NCBI RefSeq assembly: GCF_009725235.1
Contig: NZ_WJFC01000070.1
Location: forward strand, 1-60,138
Reading direction: 5' to 3'
DNA: 60,138 nt
Source: Scytonema sp. UIC 10036
GTDB lineage: Bacteria > Cyanobacteriota > Cyanobacteriia > Cyanobacteriales > Nostocaceae
The position numbers and the translations under genes were made by a program. The notes beneath the pieces are model-generated. The model did no database searches and was not told the DNA's origin. It saw nothing but the letters and a program-made list of their open reading frames with translations. Below are positions 26,801 to 60,135 of the stretch, piece after piece. How positions within the stretch are numbered: the first letter of the stretch is position 1; every line of letters starts with the position of its first letter.

Positions 26801-26855
26801 ATTTGACCATTTAAGATTTACTTGATAAATAACCTCTAAATGGAACAGAAGCATC

Positions 26856-26888: not shown

Positions 26889-26891
26889 AGT

Positions 26892-27821: not shown

Positions 27822-27845
27822 AAGAGGAAAAATCCAAAAATTTAA

Positions 27846-29195: not shown

Positions 29196-29221
29196 ATAAA
29201 CAAACAAACCATGAGCTTATC

Positions 29222-30048: not shown

Positions 30049-30049
30049 T

Positions 30050-30530
30050 ATTAGTCTACAGGAGACCATTGAGCAGTTTTACTATTGAGATGGTTAATGT
30101 TGGCATTGCTAGTTGTGCTTCATAATTTGTGATTTTGGGAAAATTCTTGCTAATTGTTCCTAACTAATTCAACTGGCAGAAAAATAATATTCAAATCCAT
30201 TTGCCCCTCTCAATTTTTTATACACATTTGTCTTTTTTTGTCAACTCCTTCTACTGAACCGGCTCTCTAGCCCAAAACGTTTATACCACTTAGACTTGAG
30301 ATAAAATACTCCGTTCACATACTATTGTGATTCGTGAGGTGTTTAAAACGCTCAAAATATAAGCTGGATAAAGGTTTGGCTAATAGCGAGCGCACCGCTT
30401 GTGAGAAATGCGGGATAAGTTGTTTTTGCTTGCACCTAAGAACGCAAATAAGTCTGACTCACACGATCAAGTTTTTGTCAATAGGAGTGTCCAAGCGATG
30501 ACAGCAAATTCTATAGTAGTTGATAGCATC
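30050..30530. other. Spacer between IS remnant and CHAT-type remnant
   Basis: About 480 bp in which no complete gene is seen. The frame leading into 30531 is open from 30408 but its upstream residues resemble nothing known. The region probably contains decayed sequence. Confidence 0.45.
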
Positions 30531-30668
30531 ATGAAGAAAATCCTGATTGTATCAGCTAACCCACAGAATACCTCTCAGTTACGTCTCTCTGAAGAAGTCA
30601 GAGAAATTCAGGCGGGGTTAAAACGTGCAAAAAGGCGCTCGCAATTTGAAATCATAACTAGTGCATAA
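30531..30668 (+). pseudogene. N-terminal remnant of a cyanobacterial CHAT-type protein
   Basis: Starting at the ATG at 30531, 45 residues read KKILIVSANPQNTSQLRLSE, then EVREIQAGLKRAKRRSQFEI. This is the standard opening of many cyanobacterial CHAT- or TIR-like proteins, in which the frame normally runs on through a DDLRRALLDHQPQ-like stretch to a HFSGHG motif. Here it ends after IITSA with a stop at 30666-30668, and the rest is missing. The frame is open to 30408 upstream, but those residues do not resemble the family. It sits 161 bp before a GTPase gene, so a CHAT, GTPase and WD40 gene set may once have been intact here. Confidence 0.55.
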
Positions 30669-30829
30669 GTCAACTCTGGTTTCACCTATAAGAATATGTA
30701 GAAGAGTTTTTCGATCTCTAATAGTACACACTTTGGTCTTTTTGTCAAATTGTAAGTACTAACTAGTAAATTTTTCACGTATCAGTAAAAACCGTGAAAA
30801 ATTCTAATTTTATTAAGGAGTCTACAGGT

Positions 30830-32032: not shown

Positions 32033-32189
32033 GTAGTTATGGAAATTCAATTACATTCCTGTAACGTTGGTATTACATTGTAAAATTTTCGTGTCTGTTC
32101 TGGAAGTCAATATCAATACCCGCCTTACTTGAGATAATTGTCTTAATTCAAGAAAGGGAGAGCGTAAAATTAATTTAGTCCAGATACTT

Positions 32190-33665
32190 ATGAATGACAA
32201 CATAGAAAAAATTCAAGCTGCACCGTTTCTAATAAGTAGTAGCCAACAACGGGATTTTACAACAATTGTAGCTCCTGGCTATATTTGTGACGCTAACATT
32301 TCTGACTTGCTCAGAAAAGTTGTGTCACGGTACAATCAACCGACACAGCTAGGAAAAGCAATATATGTAGAAATTTCTGGTTCTGAAGTTGGCGACATTT
32401 TTGTGATATTCCGTACTACCTGGGCATTGGAAAAGTATATTGGTGGTCAAGGGGATGAAATTCTCAGAGATCCGGCGAGACCAATTCCTTTTATAGAAGG
32501 TCTTGTTTTACAAGAACCAATAACCGATGATGTGATAGCATCTACAAATTTTGAGATAGCTCATCAACAAGTTGTCAAGCATTACCAAGCTTTTTGGCAA
32601 TCGCCTCAGCCTGTACAGAAGTCAGAGTCTTTTAATTTACAAACAGAAAGCGATTCAAGTAAAAATCTTATACTTATCAAAACGCAACTCTCGCCTTCAC
32701 GTGGAATTTCCCTAGGTAAATTGTGGCGCTGTATTGGTACGCTCAGTTCTGATTCTTCGTCCTACTCAGAGGTATGCTCAGTAGCTTTCAGTCCTGATGG
32801 AAAACTAATTGCAGTTCGGTACAATGACCAAACAGTTAAGCTCTGGGATTGGAGTAAACAAAAAACTGAATTTGTCTGGGATTTCTGGAAACGCAATAGT
32901 GTGAGTTTAATCGCTTTTAGTCCCAATGGCGAGACTATTGCTACTGCGGTATTTGATAATTCAGGACAAAGTGTGATCAAGCTATGGAATTGGCGAACAG
33001 GTGAACAAAATGATCTTCCTCAAAGAAGTAGAGAAGCTATTTACTCCATCGCCACCAGCTACGATCTTAATCAAGAATGGCTTGTTAGTGGTAGCGAAGA
33101 CAGACATATTGAGCTTTGGAATCTATCTGAAAAAAGAAGTATATGGAGCTTTAAAGAAACTGAAGGTTGGTTGGGGGGAGAATATTCTCCACACTTGCAT
33201 CCTATAAAATCAGTTGCCATTAGTCCAAATGGTAAGATTCTAGCTAGTGGAGATAAGGAAGGAGTTGTAAAAATTTGGGGAATGGAACGGGGCGAAAGGA
33301 GAGGTAAAATTAGAGTTTCATTGGAGTCTGTAAATTCTCTTGCCTTCAGTACTGATGGTCAAACAATAGCTAGTGGTAGTAATGATGGGAAAATAAAATT
33401 TTTTCGACTAAACAATCTTGAAGTAATTTTGAACATAGTAGTAAATCATCCTGTAAACTCAGTAGCTTTTAGCCCTTCTGGTCAAATCCTTGCTAGTGGT
33501 AGTGATGACAATCAGATCAGAATTTGGGACTTTAACAAAGGTGAACTCATTACCACTTTAAGTGAACATACAGGAGGAATAACATCAGTTACTTTTAGTT
33601 CAGATGGCTTACTCGCAAGTGGAAGTAAAGATGGTAGAATTAAAGTCTGGCGTAAAGGGCAATAG
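32190..33665 (+). CDS. WD40-repeat protein with an unrecognised N-terminal domain
   Basis: This 491-residue protein has two parts. Residues 1-140 form a domain I recognise only as recurring in cyanobacterial proteins, with QQRDFTTIVAPGYI, LGKAIYVEISGSEVGDIFVI and RPIPFIEGLVL. Residues 185-490 contain about six or seven WD40 repeats with the usual VAFSPDGKLIA, ASGSDDNQIRIWD and GH/ASGSKDGRIKVW signatures, forming a beta-propeller scaffold. No catalytic motif was seen. Neighbouring a GTPase and a CHAT-type remnant, it may act as a sensor or scaffold in a GTP-dependent switch or conflict module. That is inference from context. Confidence 0.75.
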   Translation: MNDNIEKIQAAPFLISSSQQRDFTTIVAPGYICDANISDLLRKVVSRYNQPTQLGKAIYVEISGSEVGDIFVIFRTTWALEKYIGGQGDEILRDPARPIPFIEGLVLQEPITDDVIASTNFEIAHQQVVKHYQAFWQSPQPVQKSESFNLQTESDSSKNLILIKTQLSPSRGISLGKLWRCIGTLSSDSSSYSEVCSVAFSPDGKLIAVRYNDQTVKLWDWSKQKTEFVWDFWKRNSVSLIAFSPNGETIATAVFDNSGQSVIKLWNWRTGEQNDLPQRSREAIYSIATSYDLNQEWLVSGSEDRHIELWNLSEKRSIWSFKETEGWLGGEYSPHLHPIKSVAISPNGKILASGDKEGVVKIWGMERGERRGKIRVSLESVNSLAFSTDGQTIASGSNDGKIKFFRLNNLEVILNIVVNHPVNSVAFSPSGQILASGSDDNQIRIWDFNKGELITTLSEHTGGITSVTFSSDGLLASGSKDGRIKVWRKGQ

Positions 33666-33813
33666 CAGCTTAGAAACAAATTAAACTTAGAGGCTCACAT
33701 ATTGCACAAGAGAAATTGATGTAATTAGATAACTCAGTATTCAAGAGAATGGATGATTTTCTGTATCTCATCCCAAATAGAACGTTGGCCAGAGTTAGCA
33801 AAGCTACTAACCC

Positions 33814-34068
33814 TCACCTTCCTAACCCAAAAGCATAGCTTTTTTGAATTCGCACGCGACCGAGACCTGCGATCATGGGGTCACCGTGCCAATCCGGGTT
33901 TTTGTACGCTAAGAAGTTTTTCAGCGTCTGGAACGACGATTTTTCGTTCAAACTAAATAAAACTAGCACCATAACCATAGTTCTCTCATCAATTTTTCTA
34001 AAAAAAGCACTTGCTGAAAAACTTACCTCATCTAGGCATTGAGCCGAGATATGTGTTTTTTCCTGCAA
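33814..34068 (-). pseudogene. Possible transposase fragment
   Basis: This 84-residue frame contains SAFFRKIDERTMVMVLVLFS, which is reminiscent of the 'F-KKPERIAALxMVMxLCL' stretch in IS1634-family transposases, followed by unlike sequence. It lies between the WD40 gene and a group II intron in a gene-poor stretch (33666-34182) that otherwise shows nothing recognisable. The assignment is tentative. Confidence 0.3.
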
Positions 34069-34225
34069 GATGACTCCAAAAGGCTTGATTTCTCGTTACC
34101 GAATACGGCTTTTTTAAACCTACTGTATTAAATTATCAAAACCATACAGGATAAGGGTTTTCAGATCCGGAATGCAGGTTTGGTAGGGTCGATGAGGAGC
34201 ATTACTGCACCTCACCTCCCATTCG

Positions 34226-34260
34226 GAACCGTGCTTGCCAGTTTTCCAGCACACGGCTAC
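34226..34260 (-). ncRNA. Group II intron domain V
   Basis: The hairpin has 5' arm AGCCGTGTGCTGG, loop GAAAAC-like and 3' arm GCAAGCACGGTTC on the minus strand, with the AGC catalytic triad and GAAA-type tetraloop expected of domain V. It looks intact although the encoded maturase is not. Confidence 0.75.
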
Positions 34261-34272
34261 TCAATGTGTTTC

Positions 34273-34641
34273 CTATTTGTCACTACAGGACTTCTGACTA
34301 CCATCGCTGGCAGTTTTTTCATCGTGGCAATGGCGGTGTAGTAATTGGAGATTTTCCCATTCGTTTTTGCCTCCGCATGAAATGGGGGTGGTGTGGTCAA
34401 TTTCCAATACATCACTTTCTCTGAAATGCAAGCCACACCAAGTACACTTTCCATGCATGTTGCTTCAATAACGCTGATTTGCAATACCTAATGGACGACG
34501 CTTACCGTTGGCTTTCGGAATATAAACGCGGCGTACTGGTTTTGGTCGAAATTGTTTAGATTTCAATTCAAAGTGCAACTTGCTGACAAATTCGGATTTT
34601 GCCGTTTCTGACGCGAGTTCCTTCTTGTCCTTGAGATTAAG
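34273..34641 (-). pseudogene. Remnant of group II intron reverse transcriptase/maturase with HNH end
   Basis: The N-terminal remnant reads [20 protein letters not shown], then [19 protein letters not shown], the RT-0/RT-1 region of group II intron reverse transcriptases. After a stop (NQRY, then TGA) the reading continues directly with an HNH nuclease: CTWCGLHFRESDVLEIDHTT, then PISCGGKNEWENLQLLHRHC and HDEK. The whole polymerase palm with YADD, the thumb and domain X are missing. The HNH zinc-binding cysteines and the DHTTP core are still readable. It cannot supply maturase activity itself. Confidence 0.8.
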
Positions 34642-35338
34642 TTTCTTTTGTTTGGTTTCTTTCGTATAAGACCCAAGAGAAGTCTGCTGTTCCTTTCGGT
34701 TAGGGGCAAATTTTGAACCCCTATCTTACCGATTACAGGTAAGCGTTCGCTTTTTCTCTCATCCTCTACCCTCCAGAGATTTCGGTCTTCGTTACCTCAG
34801 ACTTACTAGGAATTTTCGACCGTTCCTAGACTCTGTAGGGCTTACCCTGTTGTGTCATTTAGTTATCTGTTCTCTTTTAGGTGTTATCTATTCTGCGATG
34901 GGGTTAGTGTTCATACGGTTGATAGATGGAAAAACTATCAACCCACCCATTTACCTTTTGGTTAGTGCCTATCAGCCTAATTTGGCACTTCTTCGTATAA
35001 CGCAGTTTAAGCGATAATTTACTTACGTTCACCGTTAGAGAGTTCCCCTTTGCTCCTCTAACCAACCTGGGCTGTCAGTTTCGGCTACAATCGTTGTCTG
35101 CACTCCATCCCTTTCATTACTTACAACGGATGTGACCGGACTATTACTAGTCTTTTACGTAGGGGTAGAGGGTATGAATCCTCTAGGGAAGTAGGCTTCC
35201 CGCACTAAACGACCATTTCAGGTCGCGCTCTCCAGAACGAATCGCACTTACAAACATCTCGGCTCAATGCCCTCTCGACGGCCACCCCATCCGGGAACTT
35301 ATAAGCAAACTTGCAAATATTTCCATTCTCAACTATTG

Positions 35339-35791
35339 TTATGGCAAACTGACCTTCATCTCGATACGCGCCTGGTCGGGAAAGCGTGTTTGTGTGATAG
35401 TCTCAGTGCCTTTTGCACCTGTGTAGATGCCGTTACCGTCAGTAATTTTAAGCTTCTCAAACTTGGGTCGTTCAAACCTACCTTGGTCAATTTTGCCCTC
35501 AGTGAAGATTGTTCCGCTGCCGAATATATTGATGGTTTCCTGGCACGAGAGTACAAATTTACCGTCTGGTCGTTGATCGATGGTCTCGCATTCAGCGTTC
35601 TTAATACCTTTCTGGTTACTGGTTCCTGGTTCGAACAGAATGGCATCGAAAAACACTAAATCCCCGACGCTTTCTCCAGGCATACCTCTGTCTTCGATTC
35701 TAAATGAAATTGTCTGCTCATCAAATATCAGTTCTAATTGCTCTGCTGCATAAATTACTATTGGGGGACGAGACGACTCCCCACTGAACTC
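35339..35791 (-). pseudogene. 5'-truncated allene oxide cyclase-like/dirigent-like barrel protein
   Basis: The frame reads IYAAEQLELIFDEQTISFRI, then EDRGMPGESVGDLVFFDAIL and FEPGT, and later LKITDGNGIYTGAKGTETI near the end. This resembles the AOC-barrel-like fold (allene oxide cyclase/dirigent type) found in some bacterial secreted proteins. Coherent sequence continues 36 codons upstream of the first ATG (35683), to a TAG at 35792-35794, with no usable start and no signal peptide. The 5' end has therefore been lost, or a non-standard start is used. It lies 91 bp beyond the group II intron 5' end. Whether the shortened protein starting at 35683 is made is unknown. Confidence 0.5.
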
Positions 35792-35794
35792 CTA

Positions 35795-36313
35795 TCCATT
35801 AGTCACATCTTTCTTTACAATCTTAAAACTCTTGCATAGCTTGCATTGTAAACAATGAGAATGTCAGCAGACTTGACAAAATTACGCTTATTTTTCTGGC
35901 AAATTCTCCGTTGTTATTGAGAATTAACGACGAACGTAGCAGAGTTAGAAAAAACGAGAGCGATCGCTCTCGTAAATGTTGAGAAAGATCCGGGTAATGG
36001 ATAGGCTGCAACTTCAGAGGCTTAATTGTTCATGGGATGGGCGATAGGTATTGAGTTAACCAATTTCCAATCCTAATTTTTCAGTATATTCACCAATGTC
36101 AACTTTATCTTTAATAGACGAACATTTTATTTATTTTATTTTCATTGACCAGTCAGGTGTACGGTACATCTCCTAAATTTATTTATGGAAATAAAATTAA
36201 TTCATTATTCAAATCCTCTACTTTTCAGTATGAGGATTAACTGGTCACTGATTATCGGTCACTGGTCACTGATTATCGGTCACTGGTCACTGGTCACTAT
36301 TAAAGAATAATTT
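35795..36313. other. Spacer before wzc-like gene B
   Basis: About 520 bp without a recognisable gene. A 62-codon frame on the minus strand (35823-36011) has no protein-like features that I trust. The 3' part carries a GGTCACT-type tandem repeat at 36241-36298. Confidence 0.5.
36241..36298 (+). repeat. Short tandem repeat (CTGGTCA / CTGATTATCGGTCA)
   Basis: Units of GGTCACT and a 14-bp variant containing GATTATC alternate over 58 bp and end 15 bp before the ATG of the second wzc-like gene. A different heptamer occupies the same position in copy A (17969-17992). Confidence 0.8.
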
Positions 36314-38344
36314 ATGAACAAAATAACAACTATTGTAACGAGACAGTGGAAATTTTTACTCGCTTTTAATCTGTTTGTCATTTTGGCTACAGGATGGGCG
36401 CTAGCTACTGCTAAACCAGTTTGGATGGCAAGCGCACAATTAATTTTGCCAAAAACCAACAGTAAGCTGGATGCCAATTTAGGAACTCTTGGTTCTCTAA
36501 AAAATGGTGAAGTGGGTTTTTCCACAGAAGTCAATCCTCTCAACGTGCAGGCATCTATTATTACAAGTGATGCTTTGTTAGAGAGAGTCTTAGCTCTCGA
36601 TCCAGAAAAAAATAAGTTTAAAAGTGTGTCTGGGTACAAAAAAATATTTACGGTAAAACCAGCCGAACAATCTACAATTATGTCGCTAACTGTGACTGGT
36701 TCTAGCCCAGAATTAGCACTACAGCGAGCAATAGTTTTAACAGAAACTTATCAAAAACGTTTAAATGAACTGCGACAAGCCAACAGTCGAGCACGACAAC
36801 AATACAACAAGCAAGAGCTAGAACAGGCTAGATTAAAATTAACTTTTGCACAAAATAATTTAACAAATTTTAAAAAAGATAATGGTATCGTTAATGACGA
36901 AGAGCAAACGAAAGGTATTGTTAGCACAATCAATAGTTTGATAAGTTTAAAAGCCCAAACTTTAGCGTCAGCCAAGGCAAATGAAAATCGTGTTAAAGTT
37001 CTCTCAAAACGCTTAAGTATGGCACCAAGCTCAGCAGTGCAGTCTTTAAGTTTGGGCGAAAACCTCAACTATCAAGTTGTGCGCCAGCGTTTACTGGATG
37101 TAGAAACTTCTTTGCGCCAAAAACAATCCCTTTTTACAAACGAGCATCCAGAGATCAAAACCCTTCTTCTACAACGCGCCCAACTACAGCGTACACTTCA
37201 GCAATACGTTACACAAGTCGCATCTGGTACAAAAGTTGATACAACAGTAGCTCCTAATGTTCAAGGTCGCACTCCTTTAATCCAACAACTGATTTTGGCA
37301 GAAAGCGAAGCCAATGCTTTACGGGAACAAGCACAACAACTTGACTACCAAATAAGTCAACTGAAAACCACATTACAATCTGTTCCTGAAAATCAGGCAA
37401 AATTGTCAGAATTCAAACGACAAGTCGATGTTGCAGCTGGGGTCTATAATGGTTTACTCGCTCAGATACAGCAAAATAATATAGATGCTTTTGATGCATA
37501 TCCAAATGTACAAGTTTTAGATCCGCCTCAGGTTGAACCAAAACCAATAAGCCCCAAGCGGATGTTAATGATGATTAATGCTGTTCTGGCGTCTGTTGTA
37601 GGTAGCATTGCCTTAGTGTTGTTTTTAGAAAGCCGCAATCCTCTGTTAAGCCCCAAAGATTTACAAGCTCGAAAATTTGCTCTTGTACAAACCATTCCTC
37701 GAATCAAACATTCTGCTACAAAATTTGAACTTGTTGATGAAACAGAAGTTGAGTTTCAACGCCTTGCTTCTGCAATTAGCTTACAGCCTTTGCACAATCA
37801 CCGATTGTTGATAACAAGTGCCATTGTAGGAGAAGGTAAAACGACTGTGAGCATAGGGCTAGCTTATGCATTAGTAGATTTGGGTTTTCGAGTTCTACTA
37901 GTGGATGGAGATTTCAGGAAAGCAGAACTCAGTCAGAGATTGGGTTACATTCAAGGAGCGACAACGGGGCAATTACAAATCTCAATACAATCAAATTTAG
38001 ATTTGTTACCAGGTTTACCCAAAAAAGGCAAAATTATGGAAATGCTGAAACGGGGGGCTTTTGAACAAGCATTAGCAACGTGTGAGCATACTGGGAATTA
38101 TGATTATGTTATTGTTGACAGTGCTCCTGTCAGTTTAACCAGTGAAACCGCCCTCATGGCTACCATAATTTCCAATGTGCTGTTTGTCATCCGCCCAAAT
38201 AATAGCTATAGAAACTCTGTCAGTGACAGCTTTGCACAACTGAATCAACACAACGTGCAAATTTTTGGTCTAGTTCTTAACGGTGTGGAAAGTAAAACTA
38301 AACCCTACCCCAAATCTTCGCACGCTTCTGTGACTAACTCATAA
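36314..38344 (+). CDS. Wzc-like chain-length determinant with BY-kinase domain (copy B)
   Basis: This 676-residue paralog of 17999 has the same layout. An N-terminal membrane helix (LLAFNLFVILATGWALATA) comes first, then a periplasmic coiled-coil region with RQANSRARQQYNKQELEQ, FDAYPNVQVLDPPQVEPKPI before the second helix, then the cytoplasmic kinase. Walker A is TSAIVGEGKTT (about 500-510), Walker A' is VLLVDGDFRK and Walker B is YDYVIVDSAP. Its C-terminal tail has only one tyrosine (KTKPYPKSSH), so the usual autophosphorylation cluster is absent. It is separated from its wzy-like partner by the 7-kb island and followed after 5 bp by a glycosidase gene, with which it is surely co-transcribed. 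Confidence 0.9.
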   Translation: MNKITTIVTRQWKFLLAFNLFVILATGWALATAKPVWMASAQLILPKTNSKLDANLGTLGSLKNGEVGFSTEVNPLNVQASIITSDALLERVLALDPEKNKFKSVSGYKKIFTVKPAEQSTIMSLTVTGSSPELALQRAIVLTETYQKRLNELRQANSRARQQYNKQELEQARLKLTFAQNNLTNFKKDNGIVNDEEQTKGIVSTINSLISLKAQTLASAKANENRVKVLSKRLSMAPSSAVQSLSLGENLNYQVVRQRLLDVETSLRQKQSLFTNEHPEIKTLLLQRAQLQRTLQQYVTQVASGTKVDTTVAPNVQGRTPLIQQLILAESEANALREQAQQLDYQISQLKTTLQSVPENQAKLSEFKRQVDVAAGVYNGLLAQIQQNNIDAFDAYPNVQVLDPPQVEPKPISPKRMLMMINAVLASVVGSIALVLFLESRNPLLSPKDLQARKFALVQTIPRIKHSATKFELVDETEVEFQRLASAISLQPLHNHRLLITSAIVGEGKTTVSIGLAYALVDLGFRVLLVDGDFRKAELSQRLGYIQGATTGQLQISIQSNLDLLPGLPKKGKIMEMLKRGAFEQALATCEHTGNYDYVIVDSAPVSLTSETALMATIISNVLFVIRPNNSYRNSVSDSFAQLNQHNVQIFGLVLNGVESKTKPYPKSSHASVTNS

Positions 38345-48356: not shown

Positions 48357-50501
48357 ATGAAATACCAGATAGTTTTGCAACACGGTGAAGAAGATTGTGG
48401 TGCTGCTTGCATCGCCACGATTGCCAAACATTACGGGCGCACCTTTGCAATGAGTCGAATTCGGGAAGTTGTTGGTACCGGGCAACTGGGTACGACGCTT
48501 GTGGGTTTAAGACGTGGCGCAGAAAGCCTTGGTTTTAATGCCCGACAAGTCAGAGCAGCTCCTCAACTGATTGATAGACTCAGTGAAGTCCCTCTACCTG
48601 CCATCATCCACTGGAAAGGATATCACTGGGTTGTTTTGTATGGGCAAAAGAAAAAAAAATATATTATTGCTGACCCAGGTGTAGGGATTCGCTACATTAG
48701 TCATGATGAATTAACAACAGCTTGGGCAAATCGCATCATGCTGTTACTCATACCGGATGAAATCCGGTTTTATCAACAACAGTCAGATAAGATTGATGGC
48801 TTCAAGAGATTATTAAAGCGGATTTTGCCCTATCGCAATATTTTGACTGAGGCAATAGTCATTAACTTAGTGATGGGGCTTCTTGCTCTTGCAAATCCTT
48901 TTTTAATTCAAATCTTGACTGATGACGTATTGGTACAAAATGATACATCTCTTTTAGCGAGTGTGGCTATTAGTGCTGCACTTATGAATATCTTTAGTAA
49001 TACCTTAAAGCTGGTACAAACTAACTTAATTGCCCAATTTGCCCAACGCTTGGAATTAGGTCTCATTCTAGATTTTGGCAGACAAATTTTGCGTCTTCCT
49101 TTAACGTACTATGAAACCCGTCGCAGTGGTGAAATTGTCAGCAGACTTAGAGATATTGAAGAAATTAATCAGTTAGCTTCCCAAGTTATCCTCCATCTTC
49201 CCAGTCAACTATTTGTTGCATTGGTTTCTTTAGGATTTATGTATTTTTATAGTTATAAGTTATTTTTTTTAGCTATATTATCTGCTTTGTTAATGACTTT
49301 GACTACATTAATTTCTCTACCTAGATTACGACGCCAAATTCGTGATGTTATTGTTGCAAAGTCAGAAAATCAAGGGGTATTAATAGAAAGTTTTAAAGGT
49401 ATACTGACTCTGAAAACTGCCAATGCAGCACCCCAGACGTGGGAAGAAATTCAATATCGTTTTGGTAGTCTTGCCAATCTTAACTTTCGGACAATTCAAA
49501 TTGCAATTAATAATAATGTGTTTTCTAATTTAGTTTCTGGAGCGGGCAATATCGCCATACTTTGGGTTGGTAGCAATTTAGCGATCGCACAAGAATTAAG
49601 CATTGGTCAACTCTTGGCATTTAACACCATGAGTATTAACGTGACTGTATTCATCAATACTTTGATTGATATTCTAGAAGAATTCACTCGCGTACAAACA
49701 GCCGCTCAACGCATTACAGAAGTGATAGACACGACTCCAGAAGACCAAAACGAACAACGCAAACCTTGGGCAAATATTCCTAGCAATGCAGAAATTATCT
49801 GTACGAAACTACATTTTCATCATATTGGAAGAGTAGAATTATTAGAAAATTTTTCCTTAACAATTCCAGGAGGTAAAGTCACTGCCTTAATTGGAAAATC
49901 GGGTTGTGGCAAAAGCACCTTAGCTAAAATCATTGCCGGGTTATATCCTCTCAAATGTGGTAATATTTGTTATGGGATTTATAATCAAAAAGATTTATCT
50001 TTAGAATGCAGGCGACAGCAAGTGATATTAGTTCCCCAAGAAACTCATTTTTGGAGCCGTTCTATCCTAGATAATTTCCGATTGAGTTACCCCAATGCAT
50101 CTTTTGAGCAAATTGTTAAAGCTTGCCAAATTGCTGGAGCCGATGAATTTATTAAAGAATTGCCAGATAACTACCAAACTATCTTAGGAGAATTTGGTGT
50201 TAATCTTTCAGGAGGGCAAAAGCAGAGATTAGCCATAGCCAGAACACTTGTTGCCAATCCATCCATACTTATTTTAGATGAATCAACGAGTGCATTAGAC
50301 CCTATATTAGAAGCAGAAGTTTTAGATAAAATTTTATATAACCGACAGGGTAAGACAACAATTCTTATCAGTCACCGCCCTAGAGTTATTGGGCGAGCAG
50401 ACTTTATCGTATTCTTGGAAAAAGGACAAGTCAAAATACAAGGTAGTTCCGAAGAATTGCGTTCCCATTCAGGAGAACATTTAGAATTTTTAACACCTTA
50501 A
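48357..50501 (+). CDS. C39-peptidase-containing ABC transporter (PCAT)
   Basis: This 714-residue protein combines protease, membrane and ATPase domains. The N-terminal C39 peptidase has Gln8, Cys14 (EEDCGAAC), His90 (WKGYHWVV) and Asp106 (IADPGVG), a complete set. The membrane domain spans about 155-430. The nucleotide-binding domain has Walker A GKSGCGKST, signature NLSGGQKQRLAIAR and Walker B LILDEST, and ends with an H-loop (LISHRPR). It would cleave the double-glycine leader and export the core peptide using the HlyD-type adaptor encoded divergently. The gene starts 136 bp after the precursor peptide, most likely in one transcript. Confidence 0.92.
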   Translation: MKYQIVLQHGEEDCGAACIATIAKHYGRTFAMSRIREVVGTGQLGTTLVGLRRGAESLGFNARQVRAAPQLIDRLSEVPLPAIIHWKGYHWVVLYGQKKKKYIIADPGVGIRYISHDELTTAWANRIMLLLIPDEIRFYQQQSDKIDGFKRLLKRILPYRNILTEAIVINLVMGLLALANPFLIQILTDDVLVQNDTSLLASVAISAALMNIFSNTLKLVQTNLIAQFAQRLELGLILDFGRQILRLPLTYYETRRSGEIVSRLRDIEEINQLASQVILHLPSQLFVALVSLGFMYFYSYKLFFLAILSALLMTLTTLISLPRLRRQIRDVIVAKSENQGVLIESFKGILTLKTANAAPQTWEEIQYRFGSLANLNFRTIQIAINNNVFSNLVSGAGNIAILWVGSNLAIAQELSIGQLLAFNTMSINVTVFINTLIDILEEFTRVQTAAQRITEVIDTTPEDQNEQRKPWANIPSNAEIICTKLHFHHIGRVELLENFSLTIPGGKVTALIGKSGCGKSTLAKIIAGLYPLKCGNICYGIYNQKDLSLECRRQQVILVPQETHFWSRSILDNFRLSYPNASFEQIVKACQIAGADEFIKELPDNYQTILGEFGVNLSGGQKQRLAIARTLVANPSILILDESTSALDPILEAEVLDKILYNRQGKTTILISHRPRVIGRADFIVFLEKGQVKIQGSSEELRSHSGEHLEFLTP

Positions 50502-50848: not shown

Positions 50849-52459
50849 ATGGGTGCTGTCAATCATAGTCAAAGCTGTCCATACTTTGCCCTTGTCGAAG
50901 AAATGGACTTGATGATTCGTGCCCGCTTTCCCCTACTTTATTTGGTAGGGGTAGAAGAAGAACCTGTCGAAGAAGTTTTACTACAAGTAGCATCGCGTTC
51001 TCAACCGCAGCGTCAAGTCTTATTCTGGGATCTTGTTAGGGGTTGGAATGACAATGGTGCCGATAAAGGTTCAGTGATGGCAGCACTAGGACGTATTGCT
51101 AAAACTGATACTCAGCAATATGTACTGTTTGTCCTGCGTGACTTACACCCATTTTTGAAATATCCCAACAGTGACAAAAATGTCCCAATCATCCGCGAGT
51201 TACGCAACTTAACACAGGAGTTGAAGCGATTGCGTAAAACCCTTGTCCTTACCAGCCACACCTTAGAACTGCCTGCAGAGATACAAGAAGAAGTCACCGT
51301 CATTGATTTTCCCTTACCTAACGTTAGGGAAATTGATTACTTAATTCAGCAGTTGGTAGTTCCTGACAAGCTAAATATCAGCGGTATAGCACGAGAACAG
51401 CTAGTTAAAGCTTGCCAAGGATTAAGTCGCACCCGCATTTCTAGAGTGTTAGCAAAAGCTCTAGCTGCCAAACAGCAGGTAAATGAATCGGATATTGACG
51501 GCGTATTAGCAGAGAAAAAGCAAGCCATCCGTCAAACCGGAATTTTAGAATTTTTCACACCCCAAGAATCCCTCAAACGAGTCGGGGGACTCGATCAACT
51601 CAAGCAGTGGGTAGTCATGCGGCGTGAAGCATTTACTGATGAAGCTAGACGCTACGGTATACCCAACCCCAAAGGGGTGTTACTCGTGGGGATTCAGGGA
51701 ACGGGGAAATCCCTTTCCGCCAAAACTATCGCTCATGAATGGCGCTTACCCTTACTCCGTCTAGATTCTGGACGTTTGTTCGGCGGAATAGTCGGTGAAA
51801 GCGAAAGCCGGGTACGGCAGATGATTCAAATAACCGAAGCCCTTGCCCCCTGTGTGCTGTGGATTGATGAAATTGATAAAGCGTTCGGCAATATTTCCAG
51901 TGGCATTGATGGCGACTCCGGTACATCACGGAGAGTCTTTGGTAGTTTAATTACCTGGATGCAAGAAAAAACTAGCCCGGTATTTATTGTGGCAACGGCA
52001 AACAACGTGCAGATTTTACCAGCCGAGTTGTTGCGTAAAGGGCGATTCGATGAAATCTTCTTTTTGAATCTGCCCACGGAAAACGAACGCCAGGAAATTT
52101 TCAAAGTGCATTTGCAACGTTTACGCCCTAACCGTTTGCGCGAGTTTAATTTAGATTTATTGGCAAAGCAGACGCCAAATTTTAGTGGTGCAGAAATTGA
52201 GCAGGTAATAGTTGATGCCATGCATCAAGCATTTTCAACTACCATAAACGGACAGCGCCGAGACTTTGCAACAGACGATATTTTGCAGGCTGTAACCCAA
52301 ACGGTACCTTTAGCTTCGATTGCTTACGATCAAATAGAAGCATTGAAGCAATGGGCAGCTCTAGTTGGTGCGAGAACTGCATCAACTGACGTGCAACTGA
52401 TGAAGGAGTTGAAGCAATATTCAGCACAACGCGGGATTGGGCCTTTGGAGGTGGATTAA
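50849..52459 (+). CDS. ycf46: AAA+ ATPase, Ycf46-like
   Basis: This 536-residue protein matches the Ycf46 family, conserved in cyanobacteria and red-lineage plastids. Residues 1-230 form the family-specific N-terminal part (YFALVEEMDLMIRARFPLLY, then VLRDLHPFL). The AAA+ module follows with Walker A GIQGTGKS (about 280), Walker B VLWIDEIDKAF (about 330) and an arginine-finger region LLRKGRFDEIF (about 395). In Synechocystis the homolog has been implicated in regulation of inorganic-carbon use; the molecular target is not settled. It is followed on the same strand, after 104 bp and a short tandem repeat, by a Ycf35 homolog. Confidence 0.9.
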   Translation: MGAVNHSQSCPYFALVEEMDLMIRARFPLLYLVGVEEEPVEEVLLQVASRSQPQRQVLFWDLVRGWNDNGADKGSVMAALGRIAKTDTQQYVLFVLRDLHPFLKYPNSDKNVPIIRELRNLTQELKRLRKTLVLTSHTLELPAEIQEEVTVIDFPLPNVREIDYLIQQLVVPDKLNISGIAREQLVKACQGLSRTRISRVLAKALAAKQQVNESDIDGVLAEKKQAIRQTGILEFFTPQESLKRVGGLDQLKQWVVMRREAFTDEARRYGIPNPKGVLLVGIQGTGKSLSAKTIAHEWRLPLLRLDSGRLFGGIVGESESRVRQMIQITEALAPCVLWIDEIDKAFGNISSGIDGDSGTSRRVFGSLITWMQEKTSPVFIVATANNVQILPAELLRKGRFDEIFFLNLPTENERQEIFKVHLQRLRPNRLREFNLDLLAKQTPNFSGAEIEQVIVDAMHQAFSTTINGQRRDFATDDILQAVTQTVPLASIAYDQIEALKQWAALVGARTASTDVQLMKELKQYSAQRGIGPLEVD

Positions 52460-53104: not shown

Positions 53105-53815
53105 TCAAGCTTTAATGTTTGTGCCATTACTTTTTCTATTTTTAACTGTTTTATCTAAACTTCCGCTAGCAATCAAGCGACAATAAGAATTTAGAGAAAC
53201 AGATTCAATGCTGCTAGAATGTCCTACAAAAGTATGGATTAGTTCTTTGGTATCTAAATTCCATAACTTTACTAAACAATCATTGCCACCACTTACAAGA
53301 AATTGAGCATCAGAGTCAATACTAATTGACTTAACTGATGAATTATTAACCAACGTATAAATCAGTTCTTTGGTATCTAAATTCCAAAATTTTATTTGAG
53401 AATCCTCACTACTAGTTATCAACATATTCCTAGCGTTGCTAATAGTTAATGATGCGAACTTCTGAGAATGACCATCATTTAAAGTATATTTGTGATGAAC
53501 TTGGCGATAAGGATAAGATGTTTTTAATTCTTGTAAAGCAATTTTTATTTGAGATTCATTTTGATTTTTTAGGAGTAAGTAAGCTTGTCGCTGCACTTGC
53601 CACGATTTATTTCTCAAAGACTCAATTACTAAATCTAAACCTGCGTTCCCGTACTTAAGCGCTTCTGAAATTGCACTAACTCTATCCTTCAAATTAGCAC
53701 TTGCCAACCGCATCTGTACACCTTCAAGACCTCCCAAAACGGCAATATTTGCTGGTACTGAATTTTGACCTCCAAGTACAGCATCAGATTTTTGAGGCTG
53801 ATTATTTTTTGGCAC
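53105..53815 (-). CDS. HEAT-like/WD40 protein with DAVLGGQ motif
   Basis: This 236-residue protein has three parts. Residues 11-17 are DAVLGGQ, followed by a degenerate second AVLGGLEG at about 25-32. Residues 33-100 read like a HEAT-repeat pair (LKDRVSAISEALKYGNAGLD, then LRNKSWQVQRQAYLLLKN). Residues 105-225 carry three WD40 repeats (SSEDSQIKFWNLDTKELIYT, SGGNDCLVKLWNLDTKELIH, ASGSLDKTVK). Three WD40 repeats are too few for a closed propeller, so it may be C-terminally truncated or may complete a propeller with a partner. It begins 42 bp after the MetAP-ClpP gene, whose linker carries the same DAVLGGQ motif; they are probably one operon. Confidence 0.75.
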   Translation of the reverse strand: MPKNNQPQKSDAVLGGQNSVPANIAVLGGLEGVQMRLASANLKDRVSAISEALKYGNAGLDLVIESLRNKSWQVQRQAYLLLKNQNESQIKIALQELKTSYPYRQVHHKYTLNDGHSQKFASLTISNARNMLITSSEDSQIKFWNLDTKELIYTLVNNSSVKSISIDSDAQFLVSGGNDCLVKLWNLDTKELIHTFVGHSSSIESVSLNSYCRLIASGSLDKTVKNRKSNGTNIKA

Positions 53816-53857: not shown

Positions 53858-55300
53858 TTAGGTTGTTAACTGTGTGCGGTTAATTACCATATCAATGATT
53901 CCGTATTCTTTAGCCTCCAGTGGAGACATAAAGTAATCGAACTCGGTATCCTGATAAATTCTTTCTAATGACTGGCTTGTGTGCATGGCTAAAGTTTCTG
54001 CTAGTTTGCACCGCCAATATGCAACTTCCCTTGCTTGAGTTTCTGTGTCTGTTACTTGATCTCCACCAACAGGTTTATTAATCATGATACGACTGTCAAA
54101 TAATGCCATGCGCTTACCTTTAGCACCTGCGCTTAGGATGATGGCAGCCATGCTTGCTGCTAAACCAAAGCAAATTGTTACCACGTCGGGTTTGATTTGT
54201 TGCATGGTTTCGTAAATTGCCATGCCAGCAGTAACAGAACCACCAGGAGAATTGATATAAAGCTGTATATCTTTTTCTGGATCTTTTTCCACTAAAAATA
54301 GCAGTTGGGCAACGATACCGTTAGCTACATCGTCATCAATCGGTGTTCCCAGAAAAATAATCCGTTCTACAAACAGCCGCGAGTAAATATCAAAAGCACG
54401 AGCACGTTCATTTGGGGGCAGCCACGAGTAAATACCAAAAGCACGCTCGCCTGATTGTCCTCCGAGTACAGCATCATCGGGTTTTGGTTGGTTTGCTGAA
54501 TTCTGTCCCCCTAAAACAGCATCAGTCAATAGTGGATGTTTAGAGAGCGTAAGAATTTCAACACCATCAGACGTTACAGCAACCATATGTTCAAAGTGAG
54601 CAGAAAGTCTATTGTCTCTGGTGACAACAGTCCATTGATCGGCCAATATCCGAACTTGCCAACTACCTTCATTAATCATTGGTTCGATAGTGAATACCAT
54701 ACCTGGTCTGAGCTTTGTACCGTGACCGCGTGTGCCATAATGAGGAATGGCAGGAGCAGAATGGAGCACTCGACCAATACCATGCCCAGTAAAGTCGCGT
54801 ACTACAGAAAAGCCTGCGGATTCTGCATATTCTTGAATTGCCGCACCAATATCACCAATTCTTGCCCCTGGCTTTACCTCTGCAATTCCCCGCCTAAGAC
54901 ATTCTTCAGCCACCATAACTAGTTTTCTAGCAGTCGGGGAGGGTTCACCTACAAAGAAAGTCCGGGTGGTTTGCCCGTGGAATCCATCGACAAAGAGACT
55001 AACTGTAATGCCAATGATATCTCCGTCTCTAAGAATTTGTTTGGCATTAGGGATACCGTGGCAAACGACGTTGTTTAGACCAATACAAATTGATGCTGGA
55101 TATCCGCGATAGCCCAGTGTTGATCTTTTGGCACCCCTTGCTTGGGTCCAAGCTTCTGCTGCGTCATTCAGTTCTTGGGTGCTGACTTCTGGTTTGACCA
55201 TTGGTTCAAGATATGATAACAATTCTGCAGCCATACGTCCAACCTGACGTATCTTTTCAAGTTCTCGATTTGATAAGAGAACAATCGCTTTGTTGTTCAT
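53858..55300 (-). CDS. Fusion of methionine aminopeptidase-like and ClpP-like domains, both degenerate
   Basis: This 480-residue protein joins two proteolytic families. Residues 1-255 are a type I methionine aminopeptidase fold: His81 (CHGIP), His173 (TGHGIG), Glu206 (FTIEPM) and Glu237 (AHFEHM) are kept, but the two metal-binding Asp are Thr99 (GDIIGITVS) and Gln110 (GFHGQTT). Residues 260-282 form a linker with two DAVLGGQ motifs. Residues 285-480 are ClpP-like: Ser383 (GLAASMA) and Asp455 (TEFDYFMS) are kept, but the catalytic His is Asn408 (RIMINKP). [19 protein letters not shown] duplication lies at 286-308. The frame is intact over the full length, so this looks selected and non-catalytic or altered, perhaps a binding or regulatory protein. 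It is upstream of the DAVLGGQ HEAT/WD40 gene. Confidence 0.88.
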
Positions 55301-55407: not shown

Positions 55408-55915
55408 TTACTGAAGTTTTGCGATCACCTCCTTGGACACCAACGTTTTACCTGTCAGCAAATCCTTCACTGTCACCACCAGCATCCGCTGCTCATTCAC
55501 CTCAAATAGTGCTTCTATCCTATCTACACCCGTTTGTCCTGGTGGTTCTAAATGCGCCACGCACACCTGTTGATGATGAGTTTCTAAGGAACGATAGGCA
55601 GACTGCTGTACTAACTGCGTACTCATCATTCTCACCGTAGTATCATAAGTCACTTCTGCTTGAGAAAGATTTGCAACTTCTCCAATATCCAGGCGAATTT
55701 CCCGTTGTCCATCGGTTGCTACTTGCAACGTTAAAGGTTGCGATTTGGCACCTGGATAGCGCATCCCTTTTTCAATTAAAGTGAAGTATGAATAACTTTT
55801 ACTGTGGGGTTCCCACAGGCGGATGGCATAGCTGTGACGAAGTTAATCATCGATACCTATCATTAACACAAACAACAGTGTTACTCGTACCAAAATCAAT
55901 CACTACTGTAGTCAT
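55408..55915 (-). pseudogene. Hsp70-family gene with its ATPase core deleted
   Basis: The minus strand starts with MTTVVIDFGTSNTVVCVND, the phosphate-1 motif that opens Hsp70-family proteins, and stops after RYR (TGA near 55850). Directly beyond the stop a +1 frame reads HSYAIRLWEPHSKSYSYFTL, then IEKGMRYPGAKSQPLTLQVA. This is the C-terminal, substrate-binding-like half of cyanobacterial Hsp70-family proteins, and it continues to VVTVKDLLTGKTLV near the end. About 330 residues of the actin-like ATPase are therefore missing, with a frameshift at the join. The C-terminal frame (55408-55764) could still be expressed from an internal ATG, but it would have no ATPase. It sits between the GrpE-like and the MetAP-ClpP genes. 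Confidence 0.78.
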
Positions 55916-55973
55916 ATTTATAACGGGTGAAGGTGAAGGGTGAAATAAATCTTTACTCTTTCCCTCTTCGCCT

Positions 55974-56810
55974 TTACCCTTTTCCCCTTTCTCCCTCTCT
56001 TGGTAACATACGGCTGACTTTCGCCGGACAAAGAATGCGTTCTTGGTATTGATATCCGACAAAACGAATGTAAACTAAATCACCTTCAGTAATATCCGCC
56101 GCATCTGACTGATGTATTTGGGGATTGTAAGGTACTTGTTCCCAAGGCTTACCAATGCGTTTGTACCCCCACATATGTATTAAATTATCAAGGGGTGTTA
56201 GGAGTGATAAGATATTTTTGACAAGAAGTTCTGGTTTCACCTGTACCATTGGATAGATACTGGGATAGTTGGTGAACAATGTTTGCAATTGCTCAAATGT
56301 GGCAGAGCGAAATTCATCAATTAGTTCGTTACGTTGCTGTTGTAGTTCTTCCTGTAGACGCAAACCTTCTTGACGCAATGCGCTATTTTCCTCACTCAAT
56401 TGTTGTAACTGCTGTTGTAGTTTTGAGGATTCAGTTTTACTTGCATCTAATTCTTGTTTGAGTAATTCAAATGATGCATAAAAGCTTGTTTTTGTAGTTG
56501 TAGAGCTAAGTTTCTGAATCAGAAAAGGTAAAGCTAAAAATCCGATAGCAATTACCAACAGACTGGTAAGCGGAAATGTTGTGAAATCAAAATGTTGACT
56601 CACATTCATTGGACCACACCACAAAAAACCTTCCCTTGCTAACATCCTTGTAAGTTCTGTAACTCCTGCTACATCTCGCCACAGTAGTGTCAATACTGCC
56701 GCTATCATAAAAGGTAAATTCAGAATTCTATCCCTTAATCCTAGTTGGCGGTAGTAGTTTTCTTGTGCCGTGATAGCTGGGGTTACTAATGCTTCTTTGT
56801 TGCTGTACAA
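55974..56810 (-). CDS. GrpE-like coiled-coil protein fused to the start of an IS4-type transposase
   Basis: This 278-residue frame is chimeric. Residues 15-66 (YYRQLGLRDRILNLPFMIAA, then LLWRDVAGVTELTRMLAREG) resemble the N-terminal part of a cyanobacterial IS4-type transposase. From about residue 67 it is a different protein: a membrane helix (PLTSLLVIAIGFLALPFLIQ), a coiled coil (SKLQQQLQQLSEENSALRQE), then a domain with LTPLDNLIHMWGYKRIGKPW and DLVYIRFVGYQYQERILCPA. That domain is typical of the GrpE-like proteins paired with Hsp70-family genes in cyanobacteria. The native start may be Met67 (MNVSQHFDF). It lies 58 bp upstream of the Hsp70 relic, on the same strand. Confidence 0.6.
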   Translation of the reverse strand: MYSNKEALVTPAITAQENYYRQLGLRDRILNLPFMIAAVLTLLWRDVAGVTELTRMLAREGFLWCGPMNVSQHFDFTTFPLTSLLVIAIGFLALPFLIQKLSSTTTKTSFYASFELLKQELDASKTESSKLQQQLQQLSEENSALRQEGLRLQEELQQQRNELIDEFRSATFEQLQTLFTNYPSIYPMVQVKPELLVKNILSLLTPLDNLIHMWGYKRIGKPWEQVPYNPQIHQSDAADITEGDLVYIRFVGYQYQERILCPAKVSRMLPREGERGKG

Positions 56811-57396: not shown

Positions 57397-60135
57397 TTAC
57401 AACCAATTCCCAATCAAAACATAAGGAGCCCAGTAAATAGGATGTTCGTAATAAGGATTTTTTAAAATAGCCAATTGAGATTGACGTAAAGCTTCTGCTT
57501 TAGTTTGTTGGGTATTAGTTAAATTTTGGTAAAATTTCCCCATAAAGTTAGCAGTAGCCTCATCGTTAATAGACCATAATGTTGCCAAAGTACTGCGAGC
57601 ACCTGCCCTAACAGCAATTCCTGCTAACCCCAAGGCAGCACGCTTATCTCCTGTTGCTGTTTCACAAGCACTCAAAACCAAAAGTTCAATAGCTTGTTGC
57701 CGATTTTGTTGATTGTTTTTGAGTAAACTATCGAATTCGTTAATTTGAATCCGACTATCCCAAGTTAAAATAAAAGTCTCTGAGGCTTTAGAGCTAAAGT
57801 TTCCGTGAGTAGCAATGTGAACTATTGGGAAAGAAGCAGATTGAATTTCTTTTTGCAGATTCTTACTGGTAAACTGTTTGTTCAATAAAACTACACTTGG
57901 GACTTCAGATTTAATTTCCTTCAATTCTGTTTCTACGTATTCAAGGGGAGAAAAGCCTTGCCTTGCTTCAGTTAGCCCAGCACTTAAGACTTTCAAGTTC
58001 TCCTGTTGCAAGTGTTTGGGAGGTAATAACTGCAAACTGGGTGTGAGTGCAACGCTGTACTTTTCTATTAAAAATTGCTTGCCATCATGTAATGCTGCCA
58101 TAGGAAGATTTCGCAAGACACCATCTAGCACAAACACTAATGTCTTAACTTCACTTTTGCTTAGGTCAGTTTCGCTCTGACGGAGCAACCAATCATAAAG
58201 TTGTTGCGACAATGCCATATAGTCGTCCCTAGAACGAATGACTATAGTTTGACGGAGCTTATCTGCAAGAGTTTCTAATTGATTTTGCTCGATAGGAGTT
58301 GCATAATGAAGCAGGGGTTGTTGTGGTAAACTGAGAATAACTTCTAAGCGATCTGGTAAAATGATGGGATAAATAACAGCAGCATTTGCATCAAAGCGAT
58401 CGATAAGGTTGGGTTTTGCATCTAAGCAGGCTTCTTGGAAAAAGTTATCTAATTCCGCTAATTGCAAAGACTCAATAACTTGACGGGCTTGATGTAGGGA
58501 TTCTTGGTTTGGTTCGGTTTTCCCTGGTTGTAAAAGCAGGCTGACCAATTCTCGATAAACTGGTTCTACTCTTTCCCGAAAAGAAAATTGCACATCTGGT
58601 TCAACAGCAACGAGTTCGTTACGTAACACTTGAAGAGTTTTCACAGCTTGAGTATAAGCTGCGATCGCTCCAGATACATCGCCCTGTTTTTTTAAAAGTC
58701 TTCCAAGCTGCCATTGCCAAAGATAAGCAATATCTGGTGTATTGTAACTCTGAGCAAGCATTAAAGCTTTTTGGGTTAAATTTTGAGCAATAGACCATTG
58801 CTGAGTTGTCTCGTACAAGCTACCGAGTCTCCCCAGTGCAAAAATTTCTGCTTGCTTGTCACCTATGCTTTTTGCTTTTTCCACAGTTGTTGCAACCAGT
58901 TGGGCAATAGTTGCTATGGTTGGTGCGTCTTGAATTTTTGCCTCGGATATGCGAGTTAAACTCCGGGCAAAGTTAAGCCGCATATAAATAACCCCACGAC
59001 TTGCAGGCAGATTGACAAGTTGAGGTTCAATTTTCCGGCTTAATTCCCGCGCTAAATCCCATTGTTTTATATCAATTAAGGTATTAAGTTGATTGAGATT
59101 TGCTCGAAGTTTGAGGATTAGTGAGGGGGAAATATCTACAACTTTTTGATAAAAACCTAAAGCCGCTTCCATATCTCGATTTGCACGGGCTATGTTCCCT
59201 AGATCGATGAAGGCAGCACTTATATCTAATGGTGATTGCAATTTTTGCGCGATCGCCAAACTTTGTTGCAACACTTGCTTGGCTTGTTCTAATTTGCCCA
59301 CCAAACGCAAATTAGTCCCTAAGTTACGCAATGCGACGGCTTTAATTGAAGAGTCAGGTTGTTTTTCTAGAATTTGGCTGACTTGTGTTAGAGTCGATAA
59401 GGCTCGACGATTTAACCCTAAAGCTCTAAAAGCCTGAGATTGATTGATAAGACTGCGAATAACTCCTGTTTGATTTTCTACTCTTGTATAAGTTGCAGTT
59501 GCTTTTTGCCAGGTTGCAAGCGCCGCCTCAGGTTGCCCGGTGGCTAACTCTAAATTTCCTCGCGTATTGAGTACTTGAGCTAAAACTTTTAATTGTTCTT
59601 TAGATTGATGGCTTGGTGTTTTCCCCAACCCCTCTAGGAATTCCAAACTTTGATTGAGTGCTGTTGTTGCTTGAGACCATTGCCCCAGTTTTTGGTAAGC
59701 TAATGAAAGATTGCTTAAAACTCTAGCTTGATTGAGTTTATCTCCTTGCAATTGATAAGCTTGAAAAACGTTTTGCCAGCTCGTGACAGCTTCCAAAAAT
59801 TGCTCTCCTTCGTACAACTCCTTACCGCGATTCTCCTGTTGTAATGTGTCCTTCGCCCTGCTTTCCTCTTGTAGGGAAGGAAAGGGATAGATTAACTGAG
59901 AATCAGTATTAGACGCAACAACTTGCCTCACATTTGTGCCAGTCATAAATAAAGCGATAACTAGCCCTAACAACATCCTTTGGATGAATGTGAGTAGCCG
60001 ACGATAAGATAGTGTATACAGCGCTTTGCATCTGAATGAGGTACACCCCCCTTTCATCCCCCCTTGGTAAGGGGGGACAGAACACCCCCCTTTCATCCCC
60101 CCTTGGTAAGGGGGGACAGAATACCCCCCTTTCAT
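57397..60135 (-). CDS. TPR-CHAT protease-like protein
   Basis: This protein of up to 912 residues has a hydrophobic N-terminal segment (LLGLVIALFMTG), about eight TPR-like helical repeats through residues 100-500, and a C-terminal CHAT (caspase-like) domain from about 640. The catalytic His (IVHIATHGNFSS) and Cys (LLVLSACETATG) are both present, so activity is plausible. Residues 1-31 are encoded by a 39-bp dispersed repeat (MKGGYSVPPYQGG, 13 residues per unit). The native start is uncertain; the ATG at 59974-59976, just before LLGLVI, is an alternative. The frame reaches the window edge, so it could start further out. It probably heads the minus-strand cluster with the GrpE-like, Hsp70 and MetAP-ClpP genes. 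Confidence 0.85.
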   Translation of the reverse strand: MKGGYSVPPYQGGMKGGCSVPPYQGGMKGGCTSFRCKALYTLSYRRLLTFIQRMLLGLVIALFMTGTNVRQVVASNTDSQLIYPFPSLQEESRAKDTLQQENRGKELYEGEQFLEAVTSWQNVFQAYQLQGDKLNQARVLSNLSLAYQKLGQWSQATTALNQSLEFLEGLGKTPSHQSKEQLKVLAQVLNTRGNLELATGQPEAALATWQKATATYTRVENQTGVIRSLINQSQAFRALGLNRRALSTLTQVSQILEKQPDSSIKAVALRNLGTNLRLVGKLEQAKQVLQQSLAIAQKLQSPLDISAAFIDLGNIARANRDMEAALGFYQKVVDISPSLILKLRANLNQLNTLIDIKQWDLARELSRKIEPQLVNLPASRGVIYMRLNFARSLTRISEAKIQDAPTIATIAQLVATTVEKAKSIGDKQAEIFALGRLGSLYETTQQWSIAQNLTQKALMLAQSYNTPDIAYLWQWQLGRLLKKQGDVSGAIAAYTQAVKTLQVLRNELVAVEPDVQFSFRERVEPVYRELVSLLLQPGKTEPNQESLHQARQVIESLQLAELDNFFQEACLDAKPNLIDRFDANAAVIYPIILPDRLEVILSLPQQPLLHYATPIEQNQLETLADKLRQTIVIRSRDDYMALSQQLYDWLLRQSETDLSKSEVKTLVFVLDGVLRNLPMAALHDGKQFLIEKYSVALTPSLQLLPPKHLQQENLKVLSAGLTEARQGFSPLEYVETELKEIKSEVPSVVLLNKQFTSKNLQKEIQSASFPIVHIATHGNFSSKASETFILTWDSRIQINEFDSLLKNNQQNRQQAIELLVLSACETATGDKRAALGLAGIAVRAGARSTLATLWSINDEATANFMGKFYQNLTNTQQTKAEALRQSQLAILKNPYYEHPIYWAPYVLIGNWL

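Follow-up and report, generated by a model that had tools for sequence, protein, structure and literature searches.

A predicted pseudo-MetAP/pseudo-ClpP fusion protein encoded by Scytonema sp. UIC 10036

Introduction

Pseudoenzymes with the fold of methionine aminopeptidase (MetAP) have been found in eukaryotes, and cyanobacteria and plastids contain dead Clp subunits. EBP1 (PA2G4) has the MetAP fold and is nearer to type II MetAP than to type I. Two of the five metal ligands are kept in this protein, which uses the fold in interactions and is set against MAP2 in a table of the article describing it (PMC11266112). Cyanobacterial Clp cores are described as mixing subunits within a ring, i.e. 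ClpP1 with ClpP2 and ClpP3 with ClpR, the latter being a catalytically impaired Clp subunit (PMC4673316; PMC7966870), and the two-ring ClpP barrel is stabilised by an oligomerization-sensor arginine, Arg184 in precursor numbering (PMC9035409). Furthermore, Kaur et al. (2020) describe conflict systems of multicellular prokaryotes in which inactive enzyme copies act as effectors. The cyanobacterial domains of these systems include GUN4 and FGS, and one class, found mainly in actinobacteria and firmicutes, is neighboured by HSP70, GrpE and DnaJ (PMC7159879).

In the present study, a gene joining a type I MetAP to a ClpP was analysed in the cyanobacterium Scytonema sp. UIC 10036 (assembly GCF_009725235.1, contig NZ_WJFC01000070.1, positions 1 to 60,138); this whole stretch of 60,138 nucleotides is referred to here as the window. 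The encoded protein resembles cyanobacterial Map, a type I MetAP, in fold and sequence, but differs in that two of the five metal ligands are replaced and Pro61 is changed. With EBP1 it shares the MetAP fold and an incomplete metal site; it differs in being of type I, of separate origin and attached to ClpP, and its scores against the type II MetAP-like profiles TIGR00501 (81 bits) and TIGR00495 (37 bits) fell short of the cut-offs of 223 and 430, respectively. The ClpP half groups with sequences that include a named ClpP2 and would, by its sequence, be catalytically impaired as ClpR is; one of the three triad residues is lost, Ser and Asp being kept. Unlike ClpP2 and ClpR, it is devoid of the sensor Arg and of the N-terminal axial motif, and carries a MetAP domain in front. 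Should the assignment made below be correct, a single polypeptide would either connect N-terminal processing with Clp proteolysis or serve as a decoy, and the small group of its MetAP relatives would represent natural variants for comparison.

An earlier note on this DNA, made from the sequence alone, was aware of no described system of this form, and no such MetAP-ClpP fusion was found among the papers listed from the literature searched, which mostly covered journals other than subscription titles. A full-text search for DAVLGG, a motif of the linker, returned only unrelated papers as judged by title and start of the abstract, and nothing relevant was present among the titles listed for MetAP Asp mutants. 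The fusion appears to be rare in the data searched, its parts being of known kinds and their combination apparently new.

Results and discussion

Organisation of the fusion gene

The fusion gene is located at positions 53858–55300 on the minus strand, where a single intact frame of 480 codons runs from an ATG at 55300 to a stop at 53858. The open reading frame and Pfam analyses bear out the intact 480-residue MetAP-ClpP frame of the earlier note and additionally specify its strand; read on the plus strand (one frame), the same interval is interrupted by stops, and the longest plus-strand ORF listed within it encodes 128 amino acids. The predicted protein consists, in this order, of a type I MetAP (M24) domain (residues 15–243; 54572–55258, minus strand; Pfam Peptidase_M24, E 1.1e-52), a disordered linker in which the motif DAVLGGQ is repeated twice, and a ClpP domain (residues 299–475; 53876–54406, minus strand; Pfam CLP_protease, E 6.8e-70). 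The codon-usage score of the frame is 0.163, and 13 other genes of the window score between 0.057 and 0.241.

An AlphaFold2 model, based on a 70-row alignment with 69 different rows (P0061 being entered twice), exhibited a mean pLDDT of 87.8, with 363 of the 480 residues at 90 or above and both domains mostly above 90. The pTM of 0.59 means that the placement of the MetAP half relative to the ClpP half is not fixed by the model.

The MetAP half

In a Foldseek comparison, the MetAP half matched E. coli MetAP (2p99) with a TM-score of 0.94 by target length over 251 columns, and the fusion scored 326 bits against the MetAP-I model TIGR00500, above its cut-off of 171. At the five metal-ligand positions the protein carries Thr99, Gln110, His173, Glu206 and Glu237, i.e. 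three of the five ligands are kept. Thr99 and Gln110 align with Asp residues of E. coli MetAP; these two replacements and Asn408 in the ClpP half had been reported in the earlier note, and all three were confirmed.

For comparison, 220 MetAPs, including that of the window, were aligned from the best 120 matches of each of two protein searches, omitting P0094, which is not a MetAP. Both Asp99 and Asp110 are kept in 212 of these, and the remaining eight, namely the window and seven relatives, all carry Thr at position 99 (codon 55004–55006, minus strand). Position 110 (codon 54971–54973, minus strand) is Lys in the other seven members of this Thr99 group, with Gln found in the window alone. Across sites 81, 99, 110, 173, 180, 206 and 237, HDDHHEE was observed in 211 of the 220 sequences and NDDHHEE in P0334, compared with NTKHHQE in five members of the Thr99 group, NTKHHQA in P0006, NTKHHEE in P0002 and HTQHHEE in the window. 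Asn81 thus accompanies Lys110 in seven of the eight and Gln206 occurs in six, His81 being kept by the window alone.

Further positions were also compared. Pro61, which is present in all 212 other MetAPs, is replaced in all eight members of the group. The Met side-chain pocket was presumed to comprise positions 64, 67, 72, 179 and 223, by correspondence with E. coli MetAP; on this assignment, Cys72, Trp223 and Tyr or Phe67 occur in 8/8 members and Tyr64 in 6/8, with residue 179 being Leu in five and Phe in three.

Changes in the window MetAP were less frequent at conserved columns, affecting 17 of the 110 columns with 99 % or more agreement among the 212 active sequences versus 22 of 55 variable columns (p 0.0008), and the same bias was observed in the other seven Thr99 MetAPs (p 0.00053 or less). 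Constraint on the MetAP fold is therefore visible in these sequences, although part of the deficit of changes may predate the loss of activity. Judged by sequence, the MetAP half represents a pseudoenzyme.

Relatives of the MetAP half

The Thr99 group formed one clade with support of 100/97 in a 61-row tree that used 53 of the 212 active sequences. This clade persisted (99/93) when columns 81, 99, 110 and 206 were left out of a 53-row tree comprising 43 of the 212, one cyanobacterial-plasmid MetAP and an outgroup MetAP from L031, a record titled Proteobacteria. In the latter tree, the clade was nested inside other MetAPs with low to middling backbone support, and the window was placed near its base (87/38). 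The nearest relative of the MetAP half, P0003, is 78 % identical over 239 columns, and normal MetAPs among the listed matches are 66–74 % identical to the window. Sources of the seven relatives are labelled lgn (five) and jgi (two), which we take to be metagenome assemblies, and none is labelled ncbi or nr. No copy of the window protein was found among the listed matches; since these represent the best 120 per search, the Thr99 group may be larger. Two of the seven relatives, P0002 and P0006, are also ClpP fusions, so that, with the window, a ClpP-derived half is attached to the MetAP in at least three members of the group.

Local decay of the MetAP site was rejected as an explanation, as P0003 shares Thr99 and carries it together with Lys110, Asn81 and Gln206. 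Close homologues with an intact Asp pair, which the earlier note had named as a sign of such decay, are not represented among the nearest MetAP relatives, all of which carry Thr99. Conservation of the three replaced residues was partial: Thr99 is common to 8/8, while Gln110 (Lys in 7/7 relatives) and Asn408 occur in the window alone. Most simply, the metal site would have been lost in a single event, before this small set of cyanobacterial-type MetAP paralogues diverged.

The ClpP half

Of the Ser-His-Asp triad of ClpP, Ser383 and Asp455 are kept in the window and the catalytic His is replaced by Asn408 (codon 54077–54079, minus strand). Furthermore, the position of the oligomerization-sensor Arg is occupied by Phe454 (codon 53939–53941, minus strand). 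Both His and Arg are present in 33/33 reference ClpPs, i.e. those shorter than 345 amino acids among the last 45 listed matches (P0197–P0241). Two residues are also missing at the start of the handle, close to the catalytic His in sequence.

Related dead ClpP sequences differ from the window at these sites. The position of Asn408 is Cys in P0002 and Ser in P0194, and is absent from P0006, whose ClpP match ends at profile position 86 of 182. P0002 exhibits Gly, Cys and Gly at the Ser, His and Arg positions, and P0194 Gly, Ser and Ser, respectively, the sensor Arg thus being replaced by Phe, Gly or Ser in the three proteins. Among 207 ClpP stretches (from 120 listed proteins and the three fusions), 147 were complete at five scored sites, and the Arg was lost only in the window, P0002 and P0194. 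Ala385 was rejected as a diagnostic change, since Ala is common at this position in the same set. Three long two-domain ClpP proteins (P0126, P0193 and P0203; source ena) were observed to contain a stretch in which either Ser or His is missing.

Handle, head and ATPase-docking positions were assigned from E. coli ClpP numbering, presumed to apply here, and a ruler sequence. The offsets of His and Arg on this numbering match those given in PMC9035409. Conserved columns of the window are changed in the handle (11/25) more often than in the head (9/83; p 0.0006), compared with mean changes of 7.8 % and 4.1 % (maxima 32 % and 23 %), respectively, in the 33 normal ClpPs. A borderline excess was noted for P0194 (9/25 versus 14/83; p 0.053), and none for P0002 (7/25 versus 19/83; p 0.60). 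The assertion of the earlier note that the rest of each fold is well kept thus holds for the core of the MetAP and the head of the ClpP domain, but not for the handle of the latter. Overall, 8 of 45 conserved and 28 of 68 variable ClpP columns are changed in the window (p 0.013). At each of the eight positions of the ATPase-docking pocket, the window carries the most or second most frequent residue of the 33 ClpPs, and P0002 has Ser at one docking-site Leu. A loose pattern for the axial N-terminal motif was found in 32 of 34 sequences (the 33 and E. coli ClpP) and in 0/4 dead ClpPs, including the window. The fusion scored below the cut-off of the ClpP equivalog TIGR00493 (256 bits versus 308.6) and above that of the ClpP subfamily model NF001368 (253.9 versus 249).

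In a ClpP tree, which omits P0006, P0224, P0238 and P0235 and contains no row known as ClpR, the window half was sister to P0194 (100/99) and fell with rows including P0206, named ClpP2 by its source (91/77). P0194 (source jgi) also lacks two residues at approximately this position and has WD40 repeats instead of MetAP, representing a second architecture of dead ClpP. P0002 was placed apart from the window on a long branch; as the two ClpP halves were not grouped in the best tree, the fusion may have arisen more than once.

The residues that are kept (His81, His173, His180, Glu206, Glu237, Ser383 and Asp455) could be taken to indicate that the MetAP or ClpP site works by other chemistry or with partner subunits. 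We consider this very improbable, given that both Asp ligands are gone, with Lys at one of them in seven relatives, and that Asn replaces the catalytic His next to a handle that is two residues short. The ClpP half is, from the residues present, regarded as non-catalytic.

Junction and flanking genes

The linker comprises residues 257–296 (54413–54532, minus strand) and is predicted to be disordered, with pLDDT below 50 at residues 258–291. Its DAVLGGQ repeats correspond to residues 260–266 (54503–54523) and 276–282 (54455–54475), both on the minus strand. At the junction, a direct duplication of 27 nt (54374–54445, minus strand; copies 54374–54400 and 54419–54445) is 93 % alike and encodes ERAFGIYS and ARAFDIYS, and the DAVLGGQ tail of the MetAP continues through it into ClpP. 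Standalone relatives P0003, P0033, P0061 and P0087 end in a tail of the DAVLGGQ or DVVLG type, which P0074 does not possess. The linkers of P0002 and P0006 differ from that of the window, and in P0002 the ClpP stretch is followed by a region that matches DnaJ very weakly (E 0.15). A misassembly of separate map and clpP genes is unlikely, because P0002 and P0006 are fused on other contigs and the standalone P0003 ends in a similar DAVLGGQ tail.

Genes on both sides of the fusion exhibit signs of damage. Downstream, at a distance of 42 nt, an ORF at 53105–53815 (minus strand) encodes an N-terminal DAVLGGQ motif, a stretch that we read as HEAT-like, and WD40 repeats, and looks cut short at its end. 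Upstream, 55408–55919 (minus strand) contains Hsp70-like pieces, i.e. a piece (MTTVVIDFGTSNTVVC) that we read as the N-terminal start and a C-terminal part (best DnaK match, E 0.024), apparently the reduced remains of an Hsp70-like gene. Further upstream, in the ORF at 55974–56810 (minus strand), approximately 80 residues matching IS4 transposases are continued in frame by a weakly GrpE-like part (E 1.1e-4, below cut-off). The IS4-matching part was found in 24 plasmid records, with IS4 transposase annotated in 10 of the 20 listed, suggesting that an insertion-sequence piece was joined to a host gene. The fusion consequently represents an intact frame among damaged ones.

These surroundings raise the question of whether loss of a stop codon merely joined two already relaxed paralogues into a product without a role. 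Such decay would accord with the damaged neighbours (the IS4/GrpE-like ORF, the Hsp70-like pieces and the short WD40 ORF), the truncated ClpP match of P0006, the restriction of Gln110 and Asn408 to the window, and the duplication copies that are still 93 % alike. However, the frame has remained free of stops over 480 codons, although no relative was found above 78 % identity over the MetAP half or 73 % over the ClpP half; moreover, codon usage lies inside the neighbours' range, conserved columns are changed less than variable ones, and Thr99 is common to the whole group. We therefore consider decay unlikely.

Possible role of the fusion

As much of the loss is shared by relatives, the protein is probably retained for binding and not for cutting. 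The reading that we tentatively favour, at somewhat less than even confidence, is that of a doubly non-catalytic pseudoenzyme fusion kept for binding, which would probably cap or join Clp rings. The earlier proposal of a dead-dead binding platform fits the group-wide loss in MetAP, the kept fold and the kept ATPase-docking surface, but sits less well with Gln110 and Asn408, which are private to the window. The altered handle and sensor Arg combined with a normal head and docking pocket are indicative of a subunit that would bind Clp subunits and the Clp ATPase. Seven copies of the fusion might assemble into one dead ring, or the fusion might join ClpP1 and ClpP2 subunits; a mixed ring is plausible given that the cyanobacterial ClpP1/P2 and ClpP3/R rings are themselves mixed. 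In such a ring, the MetAP domains would be tethered at the axial mouth in place of the normal N-terminal loops, where they could prevent or gate ATPase docking, or offer the ATPase the N-terminus of a protein that they hold. Possible partners are the DAVLGGQ linker and the adjacent DAVLGGQ-WD40 protein.

A more specific role, which we regard as improbable, would be that of an N-terminus reader in the Clp core, holding proteins with an unremoved, perhaps formylated, Met at the ring mouth. A dead MetAP that keeps most of the Met pocket and cannot cut would hold Met N-termini, and the proteins so held would be either shielded or delivered for degradation. In the seven relatives, the Lys at the former metal site would be a possible pairing partner for a formyl or carboxyl group.

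Distribution and relation to conflict systems

A degenerate DNA pattern for GDII-[NSG]-[IV]-T, which recovers the window itself, matched 21 stretches (22 matches) among 84,980 species and six stretches in viral contigs, none of which was read as MetAP; as the pattern is exact and includes just part of the Ser codons, some members may have escaped it. The whole fusion matched 942 plasmid records and 165 phage records, none of which covered 80 % of the query at a single location, the 10 listed phage rows being 43–49 % identical. Seven viral loci were picked up by the A1 search.

The N-terminal DAVLGG module of the downstream ORF matched six plasmid records (Calothrix, Nostoc and Allocoleopsis), annotated as GUN4 in three cases and as hypothetical in three. 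In the regions examined, five out of the six (L033, L034, L035, L036 and L037), a module of DAVLGG...AVLGG followed by a HEAT-like part was observed in plasmid proteins of differing architecture, and a SUMF1/FGE-annotated protein, with what we read as a similar HEAT-like start, lies beside one match.

The three GUN4 annotations and the SUMF1/FGE-annotated protein, as well as the weak GrpE-like and Hsp70-like remnants adjoining the fusion and the rarity of the Thr99 group in the data searched, would suit a decoy effector of a cyanobacterial conflict system, in which dead copies of MetAP and Clp soak up or report phage proteins. Nevertheless, neither aminopeptidase nor ClpP or Clp protease is mentioned in the main text of Kaur et al. 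(PMC7159879), the fusion received no match from PADLOC, and no VMAP/iSTAND/GAP1 core (MoxR, vWA, GAP1) or EAD was seen among the subset of window ORFs scanned or read. The AAA+ ORF that does match IetA is located on the opposite strand, beside a DUF1257 gene. A decoy function is given a low probability.

Other features of the window

Several further genes were noted. The AAA+ ORF at 50849–52459 (plus strand; PADLOC IetA match, best E 8e-28) and the adjoining DUF1257 gene form a pair that we take to be Ycf46/Ycf35-like. At 48357–50501 (plus strand), an ABC transporter has an N-terminus that in our reading resembles a C39 (double-glycine) peptidase and lies a few kb from the proteins with GG motifs. 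Upstream of the fusion and on the same strand, 57397–60135 (minus strand) encodes a TPR-CHAT protein of 912 amino acids (CHAT E 7e-61). Finally, two alike runs of glycosyltransferase, flippase, polymerase and chain-length genes at 3008–20029 and 22095–38344 (plus strand) apparently represent, by our reading, a duplicated exopolysaccharide cluster.
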